64,000 nucleotides of DNA from positions 2,232,001 through 2,296,000 of the forward strand of contig NZ_OX458932.1 in the NCBI RefSeq assembly GCF_949774925.1, given 5' to 3'. Source of the stretch: Candidatus Methylacidiphilum fumarolicum. GTDB taxonomy: Bacteria > Verrucomicrobiota > Verrucomicrobiia > Methylacidiphilales > Methylacidiphilaceae. This document shows, piece after piece, positions 3,967-33,277 of this stretch; positions within the stretch are counted from its first letter, which is position 1; the number at the start of each line of letters is the position of its first letter. The notes beneath the pieces were generated by a model, which saw only the letters and a list, made by a program, of their open reading frames with translations, searched no databases and was not told the DNA's origin. The translations under genes and the position numbers were made by a program.

Positions 3967-6120
3967 ATGTCCCCATCCTCTTTAAAACCGATCGAACCAT
4001 CTGATGTCAGAGCTATTCTTTCCCAAATGAACCTAGAAGAAAAGATTGGACAGTTGGTCCTATTAAGTCCCAAGGATGGGATGCTATCTGAAGAGCTAAA
4101 AACTCTTATTCAAAAAGGAAAAGTAGGATCCTTTTTAAACCTAACAGACCCCTCTCAAATTGAAGCAGCTCAGCTGATTGCTTCGAACAGAGGCCGTTTA
4201 CAAATTCCTTTACTATTTGCATTCGATGTCCTGCATGGTTTCAAAACCATTTTTCCTATCCCGATCGCTTTGGCATCTAGTATGGATCCAGAACTTATTG
4301 AGCTGGTAGCTCATGCTGCCGCTAAAGAAGCAAGAGCTTTTGGAATCCATTTGACTTTTGCTCCCATGCTTGATGTTTGTCGAGATCCTAGGTGGGGAAG
4401 AGTAGCCGAAAGTCCAGGAGAAGACCCGTTTTTAGCCTCTCTCCTTTCTTCAGCATGGATCAAAGGGTTTCAAGGCAAGAACCTTTCTTCTTCTAGTCTC
4501 CTCGCTGCTTGTCCTAAGCATTTTGTCGGTTATGGAGCTGTCGAAGGTGGGAGAGATTATAATTCAGTAACTATTTCTCATAGGCTGCTTCAAGAAATCT
4601 ATCTTCCTCCATTTCTCCAAGCCTTTAAAGAAGGAGCGTTTGCAACGATGGCAGCCTTTGTAGCCATTAATGGCTTACCGCCAGCTGCCAATCCACAGTT
4701 GCTAAAAGGTTTACTAAGAAAGGACATTGGATGGGAAGGTCCAGTTATCAGCGATTGGAATGCCGTCAGAGAACTGGTTCAGCACGGGATCACTGAAAAT
4801 GAAAAGACGGCAGTGGCACTCGCCATAAATTCTGGCATTGACATCGATATGGTTAGTGGCCTTTATTCCCAATATTTAGAAGAACTCCTCAAAGAAGGAA
4901 AGGTCAAAGAAGAAACGATTGATGAGGCAGCCTTAAGGGTCCTAACCCTTAAAAAAAAGCTTGGACTCTTTACCCAAGAGCCACACCCTCTAAAGATAGA
5001 TCAAAACCAATGGCAGACCATTCTTAAAACCAACAAGCAAATAGCTTTGGAAGCAGCCAAAAAATCCGTGGTTTTATTAAAAAATGAAGATGGGCTGCTC
5101 CCCATTGCTCCTTCTATTCGCTCTATTGCTTTGATCGGTCCTTTCAGTGAAGAACGCAAAGAACATTTAGGCCCCTGGTCGGCTATTGGAGATTGCAATG
5201 ATGTAATAACTCTTGCTGAAGGCCTAAAAAGATATGCTCCTAGAGGAACAAAAATCCACGTGGTGGAAGGCTGCAATAAGTTTAGTCATGGCACGGTAGA
5301 TTATCAGCAAGCCCTCAAAATCGCTCAAAGTAGTCAACTGATCGTAGCAGCCGTGGGAGAAAAAGCAAATATGTCAGGAGAAGCCGCATCGAGAGCTTTT
5401 TTAGACTTGCCAACACAACAGCAGAAGCTTATTGAAGTCTTATTAGAAACCGGAGTCCCAGTTGTCCTCATAGTCTTTAGTGGCAGGCCGTTGGATCTCT
5501 CAAGAATCATTTCCAAAACTAAAGCTATCCTGCAAGCTTGGTTTTTAGGAACAGAGACCGGAGAAGCTTTAGGACAGATTCTTTTTGGGCTCTACAATCC
5601 TTCTGGAAAGTTGCCGATTACTTTCCCAAGATCCGTCGGGCAGATCCCAATTTATTATGCCCAACTTCCTACCGGTAGACCAGCCAATCGTTCCTTTCCC
5701 TCCTGCCGCTATATCGACCAAAGCAACACTCCCCTTTTCCCTTTTGGTTATGGATTAAGCTACACTACTTTCCATTACAGTTTCCCTACTCTCAATCGTT
5801 CCAGAATCAATTATCATGAAACATTAGAGATTCTGACGGAAATAGAAAATACAGGCACGGTTCCTGGAGAAGAAATCGTCCAGCTTTACATTCGTGATCC
5901 AGTAGCTTCCATTTCTAGACCTTTAAAAGAACTAAAAGGAATAAGAAGAGTCTTTCTTAAGCCTGGAGAAAGACAAAAAATTAAATTTTCTCTTTCCTCC
6001 GTAGATTTAGCTTTTATAGATTATGAAGGGAAAAGAAAGATTGAACCTGGCCGGTTTTTCCTCTGGGTTGGACCCAATTCAATGGAAGGCAAAAGAGCAG
6101 AGTTTGATCTTGTTCCATAA
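3967..6120 (+). CDS. bglX: Glycoside hydrolase family 3 beta-glucosidase (BglX-like)
   Basis: GH3 enzymes release beta-linked glucose from oligosaccharide ends by a retaining mechanism. The 717 residues show the complete BglX layout: an N-terminal TIM barrel (about 1-340) with MNLEEKIGQL, FAFDVLHG, APMLDVCRDPRWGR and KHFVGYGAVEGG; an alpha/beta sandwich (about 370-560); and a fibronectin-III-like C-terminal domain from about 610. The catalytic nucleophile is Asp263 in the ISDW motif. The general acid/base is less conserved and I cannot assign it. No signal peptide or lipobox is visible, whereas many BglX proteins are periplasmic, so this copy probably acts in the cytoplasm. It is monocistronic, and no sugar transporter or other glycosidase lies nearby. 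Confidence 0.9.
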   Translation: MSPSSLKPIEPSDVRAILSQMNLEEKIGQLVLLSPKDGMLSEELKTLIQKGKVGSFLNLTDPSQIEAAQLIASNRGRLQIPLLFAFDVLHGFKTIFPIPIALASSMDPELIELVAHAAAKEARAFGIHLTFAPMLDVCRDPRWGRVAESPGEDPFLASLLSSAWIKGFQGKNLSSSSLLAACPKHFVGYGAVEGGRDYNSVTISHRLLQEIYLPPFLQAFKEGAFATMAAFVAINGLPPAANPQLLKGLLRKDIGWEGPVISDWNAVRELVQHGITENEKTAVALAINSGIDIDMVSGLYSQYLEELLKEGKVKEETIDEAALRVLTLKKKLGLFTQEPHPLKIDQNQWQTILKTNKQIALEAAKKSVVLLKNEDGLLPIAPSIRSIALIGPFSEERKEHLGPWSAIGDCNDVITLAEGLKRYAPRGTKIHVVEGCNKFSHGTVDYQQALKIAQSSQLIVAAVGEKANMSGEAASRAFLDLPTQQQKLIEVLLETGVPVVLIVFSGRPLDLSRIISKTKAILQAWFLGTETGEALGQILFGLYNPSGKLPITFPRSVGQIPIYYAQLPTGRPANRSFPSCRYIDQSNTPLFPFGYGLSYTTFHYSFPTLNRSRINYHETLEILTEIENTGTVPGEEIVQLYIRDPVASISRPLKELKGIRRVFLKPGERQKIKFSLSSVDLAFIDYEGKRKIEPGRFFLWVGPNSMEGKRAEFDLVP

Positions 6121-6362
6121 TATTAAGCCTTCCGCAAAAAAAAATATTTACGAATAAACCAAAAGAAACTTTTGACTCGTATTGCTTTTTCTTTTTAAGG
6201 GAAAGAAAGTCAAAAAGCTGTGACTATCACCAAAATAACAAAGATCTCAATGCTCTTTCTGGATTATAATTTAATAATTTGCATGCTGCTGTCTCCAACA
6301 AAATATTTTTATATACAACCAAATAGCACTTATCCAATGTCTTTTTCAAACGCTTTGCTGCA

Positions 6363-7304
6363 ATGAGACGTTCTGCTTCCTTAGATACCCCATATGCAAT
6401 CATCGGCAAAAGCCGTTTGGCAGAGGAACTCCGAAGAATGGTAGCAATCGCCGCTATGACTGATCAACCAGTATTGATTTCTGGAGAAACAGGCAGCGGC
6501 AAAGAAATCGTTGCAAAAGCCATTCACTTTAGCAGTTCAAGAGCAATGCATCCTTTCGTTTCCATCCACTGTGCCTCCCTTCCCAAAGAATTAGCTGAGA
6601 ATGAAATCTTCGGAGGACATTTTGCTGGTGTGGAATCCCAGAGAGCGGTTATGGGACATAAGGGCAAAAAAATAGAGGCCATTGGAGGCACCCTTTTTCT
6701 TGATGGAGTAGAAGAACTGGATCCTTCCCTCCAATCAAAACTTCTTCGCCTTTTTGAAGAAGAGAAAATCACCAAAGCTAGATCTATTCGGATAATAGCT
6801 TCTAGCAAAGAGACGATTGAAAAAAATATTCAAAGTGGACAATTTCGTAAGGATCTTTTCTACCGGTTAAATGTTATTCGCATTCATACGCCTCCCCTTA
6901 GAGAAAGAAAAGAAGATATTCCTGATTTAGTCCAATTTTTTATCGCTAAATATGCAAAGGAAAATCCCAAACGAATATCAAAAAAAGCGCTTTCTTTACT
7001 CTATAGATATCATTGGCCAGGGAATGTAAGGGAATTAGAGAATATGATTATACGACTTTGTCTAACTCAACCAAAAAAGACAATAGAGCCTATGGATATC
7101 GATCTGCCCCTTAATAATCCACTGGAAATAAAAGAAATCCAAAATCTTTTCAACTTACCTCTCCCGAAAGCCCTAGAAGAACTTGAACAAATGTTCATAC
7201 ATAAAGCTCTTGCCGAATGTCCCACTCGCTCAGCTGCCGCTAAAAAACTTGGAATCGTTAGGCCCCTCCTTTACGCTAAGTTACGTAAGTACGATATCCA
7301 TTAA
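6363..7304 (+). CDS. NtrC-family AAA+ regulator with degenerate sigma-54 contact motif
   Basis: The 313 residues comprise an AAA+ domain (about 12-235) and a C-terminal Fis-type helix-turn-helix (about 287-311). There is no receiver or other sensory domain. Walker A is GETGSGKE at 41-48, and the arginine-finger region FRKDLFYRL is at 161-169. Two hallmarks are altered. The loop that normally carries GAFTGA reads GGHFAGVE around 84-91, and the Walker B segment reads GGTLFLDG at 108-115, with Gly instead of the catalytic Glu after Asp114. The sensor I ATN is ASS. NtrC proteins without GAFTGA, such as TyrR, do not activate sigma-54 polymerase, so this may be a DNA-binding regulator of another kind or a weak ATPase. 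The ATG at 6363 is the only start in the open frame and has no clear ribosome-binding site. It precedes acs, which is a possible target. Confidence 0.85.
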   Translation: MRRSASLDTPYAIIGKSRLAEELRRMVAIAAMTDQPVLISGETGSGKEIVAKAIHFSSSRAMHPFVSIHCASLPKELAENEIFGGHFAGVESQRAVMGHKGKKIEAIGGTLFLDGVEELDPSLQSKLLRLFEEEKITKARSIRIIASSKETIEKNIQSGQFRKDLFYRLNVIRIHTPPLRERKEDIPDLVQFFIAKYAKENPKRISKKALSLLYRYHWPGNVRELENMIIRLCLTQPKKTIEPMDIDLPLNNPLEIKEIQNLFNLPLPKALEELEQMFIHKALAECPTRSAAAKKLGIVRPLLYAKLRKYDIH

Positions 7305-7397
7305 TATTTCTTTTTCTTTTCTTGCTTTACAAGGGTAGTAAATTTTCTTTCAAGAAAAAGAATATCTGTTTAATTATGAGAAGAGAAGGACATTTCC

Positions 7398-9344
7398 ATG
7401 GACTCCATAAAAGAAGACAACTCTTATTCTTACTCTATTAAAAAAATCTATTCTCCACTCCCATGCTCGCAGAACGATTTAGTCGATTCCATGCAAACGT
7501 ATTTTACCCTCTACAAAGAATCTATTGCTCATCCTGAACTTTTCTGGGGAAATATAGCCAAAGAAATCGACTGGTTCGAACCATGGACTAAAGTTTCCGA
7601 TGGCCAATTCCCTCATTGTCAGTGGTTTTGTGGAGGCAAACTTAACGCAGCCTATAATTGCTTGGATAGGCACTTAAGCGGAAATAGAAAAAATAAGACA
7701 GCCCTACTCTGGGAAGGAGAATTTGGTGAAAGGCTTTCTTACACTTATCAAGAGTTAAGTCAAGAAGTGGCTAGATATGCCAATGTCCTAAGGAGGCATG
7801 GAGTCAATTTCTCAGATACGGTGATCATTTTCATGCCTCTAATTCCCCAAGCAATCATCACCATGCTTGCTTGTGCTCGTATTGGAGCTATTCATAGCGT
7901 CGTCTTTGCTGGATTCAGTGCAAAGTCCCTCCTTGAACGAATAGTTGATAGTGGAGCCAAGGTCATTGTTAGCGCTGATGGCGGCTTTCGAAGAGGCAAA
8001 ATCATTCCTTTAAAAGAGCGTGTGGACGAAGCACTTAAACACACCACACAAATTCAAAAAGTCCTTCTTTTTAAAAGGACAGGGGCCCCCACTGGATGGT
8101 GCCATGGAAGAGACTATTGGATGGAAGAAGAAGCCAGCTTAGTTGAAAATACTTGCGAGCCGGTTTCCTTAGACAGTGAGCACCCCCTTTTCATTCTTTA
8201 TACAAGTGGCACGACCGGAAAACCAAAAGGGGTTGTCCATTCCACTGGAGGCTATTTGGTTCAAACGGCTTTCAGTTCGAAGATTGTATTTGACCTACAA
8301 GAAGATGATTTATACTGGTGCACGGCCGATATTGGATGGATTACTGGCCACAGCTACGTAGTCTATGGTCTGCTAGCTAACGGAGCATCCGTTTTCATTT
8401 ATGAAGGAGCTCCCGATTTTCCTTCTTATGATCGATTTTGGCAGCTTATCGAAAAATACAAGATCACTATATTCTACACTTCTCCTACTGCGATCCGATC
8501 CTTTATCAAGTGGGGGCCTCAATGGATAGAAAAACATGATCTTTCTTCCTTGAGATTATTGGGCAGTGTTGGAGAACCAATCAATCCCGATGTATTTTTA
8601 TGGTTCTACAAAAATATTGGCAAAGAAAAATGTCCCATCGTAGACACATGGTGGCAAACGGAAACGGGGTCTATTTTAATATCCCCTCTACCCAAAGTTA
8701 CTCCAATGAAACCTGGTTCAGCCACTTTTCCACTTTTTGGAATAGAACCAGAGGTCGTTGATGAAAAAGGTGAGCCCATGCCTGCTGGCAAAAATGGGCT
8801 GTTGGTCATTAAAAAACCATGGCCTTCGATGCTAAGAGGCATCTATCGTGATGAGGAGAGTTTCAAAAAAATTTACTTTAGTAGAATCCCAGGAGTATAC
8901 TTTACAGGAGATGGAGCGTATAAAGATGAAGAAGGGTACTTCTGGATTATAGGCAGAATCGATGATGTGATCAATGTCTCGGGACATCGCATTGGATCTG
9001 CTGAATTAGAAAGCGCACTCATTAGTCATCCGGCAGTTGCTGAAGCTGCAGTCATTGGAGTCCCTGATTCAGAAAAAGGAGAGGCTCTTATAGCCTTCGT
9101 AACACTAAAAGAAGGATGGACTTCATCATTGGACTTAGAGAATGCTTTAAAGGAACATGTTGTAAAAGAGATAGGCTCTATAGCAAGACCAAAGGAAATT
9201 CGATTCATTGATGCATTGCCTAAGACCCGAAGTGGCAAGATTGTTCGAAGACTTCTTAAAGAAATCAGTCGTGAGGGGCACATTTCAGGGGATGTAACCA
9301 CCCTAGAAGATAGCCAGTGTTTAGATAAGCTAATAAAAGGCTAA
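7398..9344 (+). CDS. acs: Acetyl-CoA synthetase (AMP-forming)
   Basis: Acs activates acetate to acetyl-CoA through an acetyl-AMP intermediate, using ATP. The 648 residues match the usual ~650. The N-terminal ACAS region begins by residue 35. The P-loop-like YTSGTTGKPKG motif, the WWQTETGS motif and the C-terminal PKTRSGK motif are all intact. Lys614 in the last motif is the residue that is reversibly acetylated in other Acs proteins. The start ATG at 7398 is preceded by AGAAGGA about 11 nt upstream, a good ribosome-binding site. It follows the NtrC-like regulator by 93 nt on the same strand. In a C1-using organism it would salvage acetate, and possibly acetate made from acetaldehyde by the 2-oxo-acid decarboxylase at 53.2 kb; that link is inference. 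Confidence 0.96.
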   Translation: MDSIKEDNSYSYSIKKIYSPLPCSQNDLVDSMQTYFTLYKESIAHPELFWGNIAKEIDWFEPWTKVSDGQFPHCQWFCGGKLNAAYNCLDRHLSGNRKNKTALLWEGEFGERLSYTYQELSQEVARYANVLRRHGVNFSDTVIIFMPLIPQAIITMLACARIGAIHSVVFAGFSAKSLLERIVDSGAKVIVSADGGFRRGKIIPLKERVDEALKHTTQIQKVLLFKRTGAPTGWCHGRDYWMEEEASLVENTCEPVSLDSEHPLFILYTSGTTGKPKGVVHSTGGYLVQTAFSSKIVFDLQEDDLYWCTADIGWITGHSYVVYGLLANGASVFIYEGAPDFPSYDRFWQLIEKYKITIFYTSPTAIRSFIKWGPQWIEKHDLSSLRLLGSVGEPINPDVFLWFYKNIGKEKCPIVDTWWQTETGSILISPLPKVTPMKPGSATFPLFGIEPEVVDEKGEPMPAGKNGLLVIKKPWPSMLRGIYRDEESFKKIYFSRIPGVYFTGDGAYKDEEGYFWIIGRIDDVINVSGHRIGSAELESALISHPAVAEAAVIGVPDSEKGEALIAFVTLKEGWTSSLDLENALKEHVVKEIGSIARPKEIRFIDALPKTRSGKIVRRLLKEISREGHISGDVTTLEDSQCLDKLIKG

Positions 9345-10250: not shown

Positions 10251-11390
10251 CAGAGGGTCTGGTCGCAGATAGGTGAAGCGCATTGGAAATGGCATCACCT
10301 GACCGAAGGCCAGCGGGTGCCTGTTGACGCCGCCGACCACATCCCGGTGGCCCTAAAAGCCACATTTAGACCATCGCCAGTTCCGCCCATTGGGCTTATG
10401 GCGATGGCCGCATTCCGGACACCGGCTGGAGGTGTCCCGTTCCTCCCCGGTGAAGCACGCAATGCGGATTTGCTCTACTTCTGCTTCAAATAGTCCAAAT
10501 CCTTACCATATTCCCACTGGCTCATCCGCTGGTTGGGACGGCGTCTACAGGCGCCGCAACGTACTCCATCCGGGTTACCAGCGAAGATGGATTGAATTCC
10601 ATGATACAGGTAAAAGTCTATGATCTTCCGGATACCTTTATGATGCAGGTCGCAAATCCGGCGTTTATGACGCAGCGTGCGCTTCGCTCTGGCTCGTCCG
10701 AGCTTGCGCATTCGCCGGCTGCCCTTCCTGCATCGGAAGCGCTTTTTTTGGATTTCTCCGAGTTGCTTACTGCGTAGCCGTTTGATGGTTCGCAAGACTT
10801 TCCCGGAAACGACTAGAGTGTTCCCATTGTTGGAGACAATGATGGCCTGGTGAATTTGGCCGGAAATCCACCGTGGCACACTGTTCCGTGGGCTCTTGCA
10901 AGTTCGGATCAGCTGCCGATTCGACCAAGGTTATGTGCCATTCGTTGGGCAGGTCATTCCAGAGGATCAGGCAAGCGGATTTATGCAAAAGCCAAGCGGG
11001 ACGCGGCAATATCAGAAACGATCCTCCTCGTCCCATAGGGAGAACGATCCGCTTTTCCTTTATTCCCATTGGTTAGGCCGGCCAACATGAGAGGGGAAAA
11101 GCGCTTGTCCTTATATGGATAATAGATAGTCCTGCGGCCATCGCTGCGGTTCCTGCGAACTGCTTCCACGGCTGCGTCGAAGGCGCGAAAGATCTGTTGG
11201 ACCCTTTGGGCATGCAAGGCGTAACACCTCGGGCGGTGGCTTTGTGATATTTATCGCGTCTGGGCCATGGCGCATTCGTCTTGCGAGCCTTGAAATGCAC
11301 GTTCCGACACGTCTCCCAGACCTTGACCGCATCCAACTTGCCTTGCTGAATGATGGGGAGCCTCTCTTTTGGAGATACACTTCAGGGATA
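10170..11390 (-). pseudogene. tnpB: TnpB (IS605 OrfB) RNA-guided nuclease, disrupted
   Basis: TnpB is the RNA-guided RuvC-type nuclease of IS605 elements and the ancestor of Cas12. Fragments in all three minus-strand frames line up in the correct order. They are an N-terminal part (KLDAVKVWETCRNVHF, near 11.3 kb), a middle part (YYPYKDKRFSPL, near 11.1 kb), the first RuvC motif (ATVD, near 10.9 kb), a central helical part with KGSRRMRKLGRARAKR, NQRMSQWEYGK, a zinc ribbon with CPECGHRHKPNGR, and the final RuvC motif GHRDVVGGVN. Frameshifts separate these pieces. The zinc ribbon runs into an in-frame TAG exactly where relatives have the FEGH glutamate. It therefore cannot make a full nuclease. 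The end is taken at the TGA at 10170-10172 and the beginning is approximate. Confidence 0.85.
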
Positions 11391-33138: not shown

Positions 33139-33277
33139 ACTTTTTTTAGAGCAAAAAATGTGCCATAAAAAAAACAATTTTAGATCTTATTCGAGAGCAA
33201 GGAGATATTTAAATAGTAGATTCTTTATATCTTTTATAAGGAGGGTACCATTGGGTCATTTTGTCCCACTAGAGTGG

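Follow-up and report, generated by a model that had tools for sequence, protein, structure and literature searches.

The window, a 64,000-nucleotide stretch of the Candidatus Methylacidiphilum fumarolicum genome (G000), carries three co-oriented genes near its beginning. A beta-glucosidase-like gene at 3967–6120 is followed on the + strand by the gene of interest at 6363–7304 and then by acs at 7398–9344, which encodes acetyl-CoA synthetase (the first and the last gene were named by eye). The middle gene starts with ATG and encodes a 313-residue protein, to which we refer as the regulator. Pfam assigns residues 13–175 to Sigma54_activat (E 7.4e-42), residues 180–248 to AAA_lid_14 and residues 271–310 (7173–7292) to HTH_8, a Fis-type helix-turn-helix (HTH). 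About 12 residues precede the AAA+ domain, and the Pfam scan found no receiver or sensory domain. The first-pass annotation, which had described an NtrC-type regulator devoid of a sensory domain and placed directly before acs, is correct on both points: acs begins 93 bp after the stop codon (gap 7305–7397), on the same strand.

The nucleotide-binding site is preserved in part. The Walker A motif GETGSGKE (residues 41–48; 6483–6506) is intact and all eight of its positions are invariant in the five orthologues described below. The L1 loop region (residues 85–100; 6615–6662) reads EIFGGHFAGVESQ, with GGHFAGVE where GAFTGA is expected, and has no invariant position among its 16. The Walker B motif reads LFLDG (residues 111–115; 6693–6707), so that the catalytic glutamate is replaced with a glycine; the DG codons are GAT GGA (6702–6707), the glycine codon GGA occupying 6705–6707. 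In sensor I (residues 146–148; 6798–6806) the expected ATN is ASS, in the context IIASSK. These three deviations had been noticed in the first pass, and the translation of the reading frame and the orthologues bear them out. A fourth one had been overlooked. The pre-sensor I (L2) loop is a remnant (residues 134–142; 6762–6788) with one invariant position in nine, and it is approximately 6–7 residues shorter than in most paralogues. The arginine-finger segment FRKDLFYRLNV (residues 161–171; 6843–6875) is present. Its R162 and R168, as well as R223, are invariant in the five orthologues, and by analogy with PspF we take the former two to be arginine fingers and the latter to be the sensor II arginine. 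Overall, 186 of the 313 positions are invariant. Together with Walker A, the HTH is the most conserved part of the protein (38 of 42 positions in residues 270–311).

All five Methylacidiphilum genomes contain an orthologue, with 69–100% identity to the regulator of the window (97% in both G004 and Methylacidiphilum sp. Yel, G001; 71% in G003; 69% in G002), and the other 25 of the 30 relatives gave matches at the level of paralogues only. In a draw of 387 genomes from the phylum, in which at most five candidates per genome were scored at E ≤ 1e-62, four genomes matched. All four were Methylacidiphilum, G003 was not among them, and the sole second matches were to a paralogue of 41–43% identity. 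When a named genome collection was searched with two short peptide patterns, which does not amount to a census, Methylacidiphilum sp. Yel was the sole genome with the HTH profile. None of the 25 NCBIfam models listed reaches its cut-off for the regulator. GAFTGA is absent from all five orthologues, and the pre-sensor I loop is short in all of them by about 6–7 residues. Four of them have ASS at sensor I, and the fifth (G002) has ASN. Walker B splits the group: G000, G001 and G004, which form one clade, have DG, whereas G002 and G003 have DE. As DG is found in three genomes, the change is neither a chance event nor a sequencing error. The loss of GAFTGA therefore extends to all five genomes of the genus, and the Walker B change to three of them.

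The ratio dN/dS is 0.06–0.12 in the seven of ten orthologue pairs for which it has a finite value; dS is unsaturated in three of these seven, all within the clade of the window (0.06, 0.07 and 0.12). In the AAA+ domain of this clade, in which the glutamate has become glycine, pN/pS is 0.08–0.13 (p at most 3e-10 per pair, the pairs sharing branches and hence not being independent). Such low values show that the gene is not decaying and that the nucleotide-binding domain has kept its importance without the glutamate. For L1 of the same clade, pN/pS is 0.10 and 0.12 in two pairs and 0.41, which is not significant, in the third; this speaks against a loop that is simply free to vary, and the loop may have a function of its own. 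The first-pass annotation had reasoned that intact GAFTGA and DE motifs in sister strains would make this gene a decaying copy or a sequencing error. DE is indeed intact in two sister species, but GAFTGA is intact in none and the gene is not in decay. The regulator is a real protein under selection, which is confined to one genus as far as we have searched.

In G000, each of the six paralogues still has DE, ATN and an L1 of the GAFTGA type. Between species (G000, G002 and G003), 2–3 of 17 L1 residues are identical in the regulator vs. 11–16 of 15–16 in the six paralogues, the L1 of the regulator being two residues longer in this alignment, and the corresponding numbers for pre-sensor I are 4–5 of 11–14 vs. 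10–16 of 16. In the C-terminal part of the regulator, 69–71 of 88–90 residues are identical in the same comparison.

In a tree of 46 sequences, the five orthologues cluster together (100/100). Close to them lie response regulators from their own genus (L021 type) and from genus g3, which we take to be Methylacidimicrobium; the order of the forks near this group is open and several branches are long. In G000 and in two genomes of g3 (G006 and G007), the related response regulator follows a membrane protein of 484–495 residues, which, judged by its position and length, is probably a kinase. The G000 copy of this pair, a probable kinase and an NtrC-type response regulator, lies at G000:C1:1315556-1318349 (L077:4556-7350). 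Outside the orthologue group, the nearest HTHs belong to the g3 response regulators (best E 6e-11). The HTH of the relative in the own genome gives 3.7e-7, and response regulators of unrelated genera are no farther away (4.6e-7 to 9.9e-7). From these sequence comparisons, the origin of the regulator is most simply explained by a duplication of the related response regulator and a loss of its receiver domain, an explanation which the HTH search helps.

The predicted structure has a complete AAA+ fold (mean pLDDT 83.7, pTM 0.69, 27 sequences) with residues 86–98 of L1 at a pLDDT below 50. Its best structural match is FleQ (Z 27.3, 2.4 Å, 239 aligned residues), followed by NtrC1 (Z 27.0); VpsR (PDB 7v2b) scores lower (Z 26.2, rmsd 2.7 Å, 236 aligned residues). 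These matches cover residues 8–252 only, and a likeness of folds shows no function. By sequence, the nearest proteins are ZraR, NifA and FleQ.

Whether the genome has sigma-54 promoters at all was a question raised in the first pass, and the answer is that both rpoN and exact -24/-12 promoter sites exist. rpoN is present in all nine genomes searched, and G000 contains eight exact TGGCAC-N5-TTGCW sites vs. one for the reversed control. Four of the eight end 11–37 bases before the ATG of a frame of at least 129 residues. Since the genes behind the exact sites include nifB-, nifA- and dnaK-like genes (named by eye), the consensus holds in G000. One exact site lies in the window on the - strand at 33150–33165 (TGGCACATTTTTTGCT), ends 11 bases before the ATG of the dnaK-like gene and is a possible candidate for the sigma-54 promoter of a main chaperone. 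A degenerate scan of the window for -24/-12 elements with one mismatch performed no better than chance (71 sites vs. 84 expected). No GG-N10-GC core was found in any of the four uninterrupted gaps between the regulator and acs, the one of the window included, and relaxed scores there were no better than those of shuffled sequences. Two of the five genomes have weak cores upstream of the regulator, G004 on the other strand and G003 three times within 1,121 bp; G000 has none. A scan of positions 6100–7450 for the sigma-70 consensus gave one site vs. 3.5 expected; it is on the - strand, and none was found on the + strand, so the scan lends no support to action at sigma-70 promoters.

The conclusion in which we have most confidence is that the regulator is uncoupled from sigma-54, and the sequences support it well. 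A protein that has lost GAFTGA, part of the pre-sensor I loop and the Walker B glutamate should bind ATP and assemble, but should not work on sigma-54. Experiments on other proteins of this type point in the same direction. Changes in pre-sensor I are reported to disturb both hydrolysis and sigma-54 engagement (PMC2745333). The L1 mutant T86A of PspF fails to engage polymerase, and its E108Q mutant binds ATP more tightly, has under 1% of the ATPase activity and forms constitutive hexamers, according to PMC4132715. By analogy, though, loss of a motif is no proof of uncoupling, since GAFTGA-less alleles of Caulobacter NtrC are described as activating some sigma-54 genes (PMC12421884) and PspF E108Q/A/D can still engage polymerase (PMC4132715). 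The first-pass expectation that this protein would not act on sigma-54 polymerase as a normal remodeller agrees with our findings: both coupling loops are degenerate in five of five orthologues, the rest of the protein is under selection and the four gaps before acs contain no core. To annotate this gene as “sigma-54-dependent” is probably wrong.

We consider it the most probable explanation, with a probability of roughly 60%, that a former sigma-54 activator has become an ATP-gated DNA-binding oligomer that works at ordinary promoters. Its ancestor would have been a sigma-54 activator akin to an NtrC-type response regulator, from which the receiver and both coupling loops have disappeared. 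The present protein probably still binds ATP between its subunits and would bind DNA through the conserved HTH. As an ATP-gated dimer or a higher oligomer, it may either activate or repress promoters of the sigma-70 type. In the clade of the window, the switch would consist of ATP binding without turnover, and in the two species that keep DE (G002 and G003) hydrolysis may persist. The earlier proposal of a non-hydrolysing switch is thus narrowed to the three DG genomes. It is plausible that the regulator acts at sigma-70 promoters and that it controls acs.

A rather unlikely alternative is that the regulator antagonises the related response regulator at G000:C1:1317396 and damps sigma-54 activation by that protein, either by occupying its enhancer sites or by entering its hexamer as a dead subunit. 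The subunit-contact residues R162 and R168 have been kept, this relative occurs in every one of the five genomes, and the matching g3 response regulators own the nearest HTHs outside the group. However, the HTH of the relative with which the regulator shares a genome is no nearer than those of unrelated genera, the recognition helices of the two proteins differ (VRPLLYAKLRKY vs. HRSLLYLKMKEH), and the regulator gene adjoins acs and not the relative. We give slightly less credit still to the idea that the regulator simply binds DNA as a repressor or activator, with the AAA+ domain as a mere dimer scaffold and the nucleotide irrelevant. VpsR, which is said to work without ATP (PMC10274813), is a precedent for such a protein, and the AAA+ folds of the two are similar over 236 residues. 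On the other hand, a scaffold would hardly account for the invariance of Walker A, the retention of the arginine fingers or the strong purifying selection on the AAA+ domain, which continues even after the loss of the glutamate. That the regulator remains a sigma-54 activator and contacts the factor through an altered L1 loop is improbable. The sigma factor and its promoter sites do exist, the Caulobacter NtrC alleles demonstrate that GAFTGA can be bypassed, and two of the three pairs in the window's clade show constraint on L1, but L1 and pre-sensor I are not conserved across the five orthologues, there is no promoter core in front of acs, and three of five proteins have lost the Walker B glutamate. 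Finally, a decaying duplicate or a sequencing error can practically be dismissed. In favour of decay, the regulator is less conserved between species (68–73% identity) than four of the paralogues, whichever of the three comparisons is taken, although the remaining two of the six (L023 and L026) are about equally variable. Against it, no stop codon interrupts the match in any of the five genomes, DG recurs in three of them and dN/dS is low.

Within the explanation that we prefer, an ATP-gated oligomer at ordinary promoters, we tentatively suggest that a sigma-54 motor turned step by step into a DNA switch that only binds ATP. Loss of the coupling loops would have preceded the split of the five species, and loss of the catalytic glutamate would have followed in a single clade. 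Selection would have continued to act on the nucleotide pocket, the trans-acting arginines and the HTH, and in that clade the new L1 would have acquired a constrained sequence of its own. If this is true, the species that keep DE are living intermediates, and the role of hydrolysis can be compared between orthologues at one and the same locus. A natural series of this kind, with DE kept and lost within one orthologue group, bears on the question of whether a regulator uncoupled from sigma-54 needs ATP hydrolysis.

Relatives of EBPs that are uncoupled from sigma-54 are already known and include HupR, Rhodobacter capsulatus NtrC, VpsR, TyrR and Caulobacter NtrC; about 110 EBP homologues with deviating motifs had been counted by 2011 (PMC3162934). 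With its EBP architecture, lost sigma-54 loop and a gene under selection, the regulator fits into this company. What sets it apart is that a second loop is shortened, that one clade subsequently lost the Walker B glutamate and that there is no sensory domain. In the literature searched we found no GAFTGA-less EBP in which Walker B is degenerate as well, which does not prove that there is none.

R. capsulatus NtrC, HupR and Caulobacter NtrC resemble the regulator in that they combine an NtrC-family AAA+ domain and an HTH in the absence of GAFTGA; all three work at sigma-70 promoters (PMC10274813, PMC3162934). The two NtrC proteins belong to NtrB–NtrC pairs and have GAFTGA deleted, whereas in the regulator the loop is replaced, pre-sensor I is short and there is no receiver; in one clade of orthologues, moreover, the Walker B glutamate is gone. 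Their reported dependence on the nucleotide varies: R. capsulatus NtrC has to bind ATP but not to hydrolyse it, and both Walker motifs are required in Caulobacter NtrC (PMC10274813). VpsR of Vibrio cholerae shares the AAA+ fold and the lack of GAFTGA and acts at sigma-70 promoters (PMC10274813, PMC3162934), but it has a receiver-type phosphorylation site and binds c-di-GMP. The regulator scores below the cut-offs of the models for E. coli TyrR (203 vs. 576 bits) and DhaR (194 vs. 551 bits). Both of these proteins have ligand-binding N-terminal domains, which are absent in the regulator. They are described as EBP paralogues that have lost the interaction with sigma-54 and depend on sigma-70 (PMC3162934). 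The first-pass idea of a TyrR-like regulator consequently survives as an analogy and not as an assignment to that family. FleQ of Pseudomonas, the best match in terms of the AAA+ structure, acts at promoters of both types and keeps GAFTGA and a receiver-like domain. PspF of E. coli consists of an AAA+ domain and a Fis-type HTH with no N-terminal domain. It thus has the same layout as the regulator, and its E108Q/A mutants model the lost glutamate (PMC4132715), but PspF is a genuine sigma-54 activator, with GAFTGA, DE and a pre-sensor I loop of full length.

By its adjacency, acs is a plausible target of the regulator and the first candidate. The order of the beta-glucosidase-like gene, regulator and acs is identical, with acs co-oriented, in the four genomes in which the locus is unbroken, and the beta-glucosidase-like gene lies directly upstream of the regulator in the fifth one, too. 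The surroundings of acs were also searched by tblastn in seven genomes (G005–G011) from the family's two other genera. Flanks of about 1.5 kb in all seven, and of 4.3–4.8 kb in two, contained no relative of the regulator. G000 has a single acs gene, which presumably is Mfumv2_2288 if G000 is M. fumariolicum SolV. A gene of that name is given as acs in PMC7768010. The mRNA listed as Acs in SolV amounts to 448, 297 and 414 RPKM in three conditions (PMC3404531). Provided that this entry corresponds to the acs gene of the window, as we infer, an mRNA that varies so little gives no sign of regulation and counts against a regulated acs. We found no described regulator of acetate activation in verrucomicrobial methanotrophs in the literature searched, and the protein is a candidate for a local one.

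A near-palindrome, TTTTCTTTCAAGAAAA, is located at 7343–7358 of the window, 39 bp before acs; it also precedes acs in Methylacidiphilum sp. Yel, but not in the other three genomes. The palindrome TTTTCTTTNAAGAAAA is found 39 bp upstream of acs in two of the five genomes (G000 and G001). Its pattern has two occurrences each in G000 and G001, one in G004 and none in either G002 or G003; a reversed control pattern turns up about as often, and the palindrome is at most a lead. An operator shared by the regulator and acs promoters was also considered and rejected, as alignments of the DNA upstream of the regulator from the five species contain no convincing conserved dyad.

A point against the preferred explanation is that the locus is interrupted in Methylacidiphilum sp. 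Yel, where a repeat (L030:12660-12773) directly follows the regulator at the end of its contig and acs starts another contig, L042. The repeat has at least 29 matches in the Yel genome. A similar hairpin-like end precedes acs at the start of L042, and the two contigs are probably neighbours. By eye, the repeat resembles an element of the IS200/IS605 type, which was apparently inserted between the regulator and acs. In the window itself, a basic, cysteine-containing frame on the - strand at 10475–10879 resembles, again by eye, a fragment of an IS605-type TnpB.
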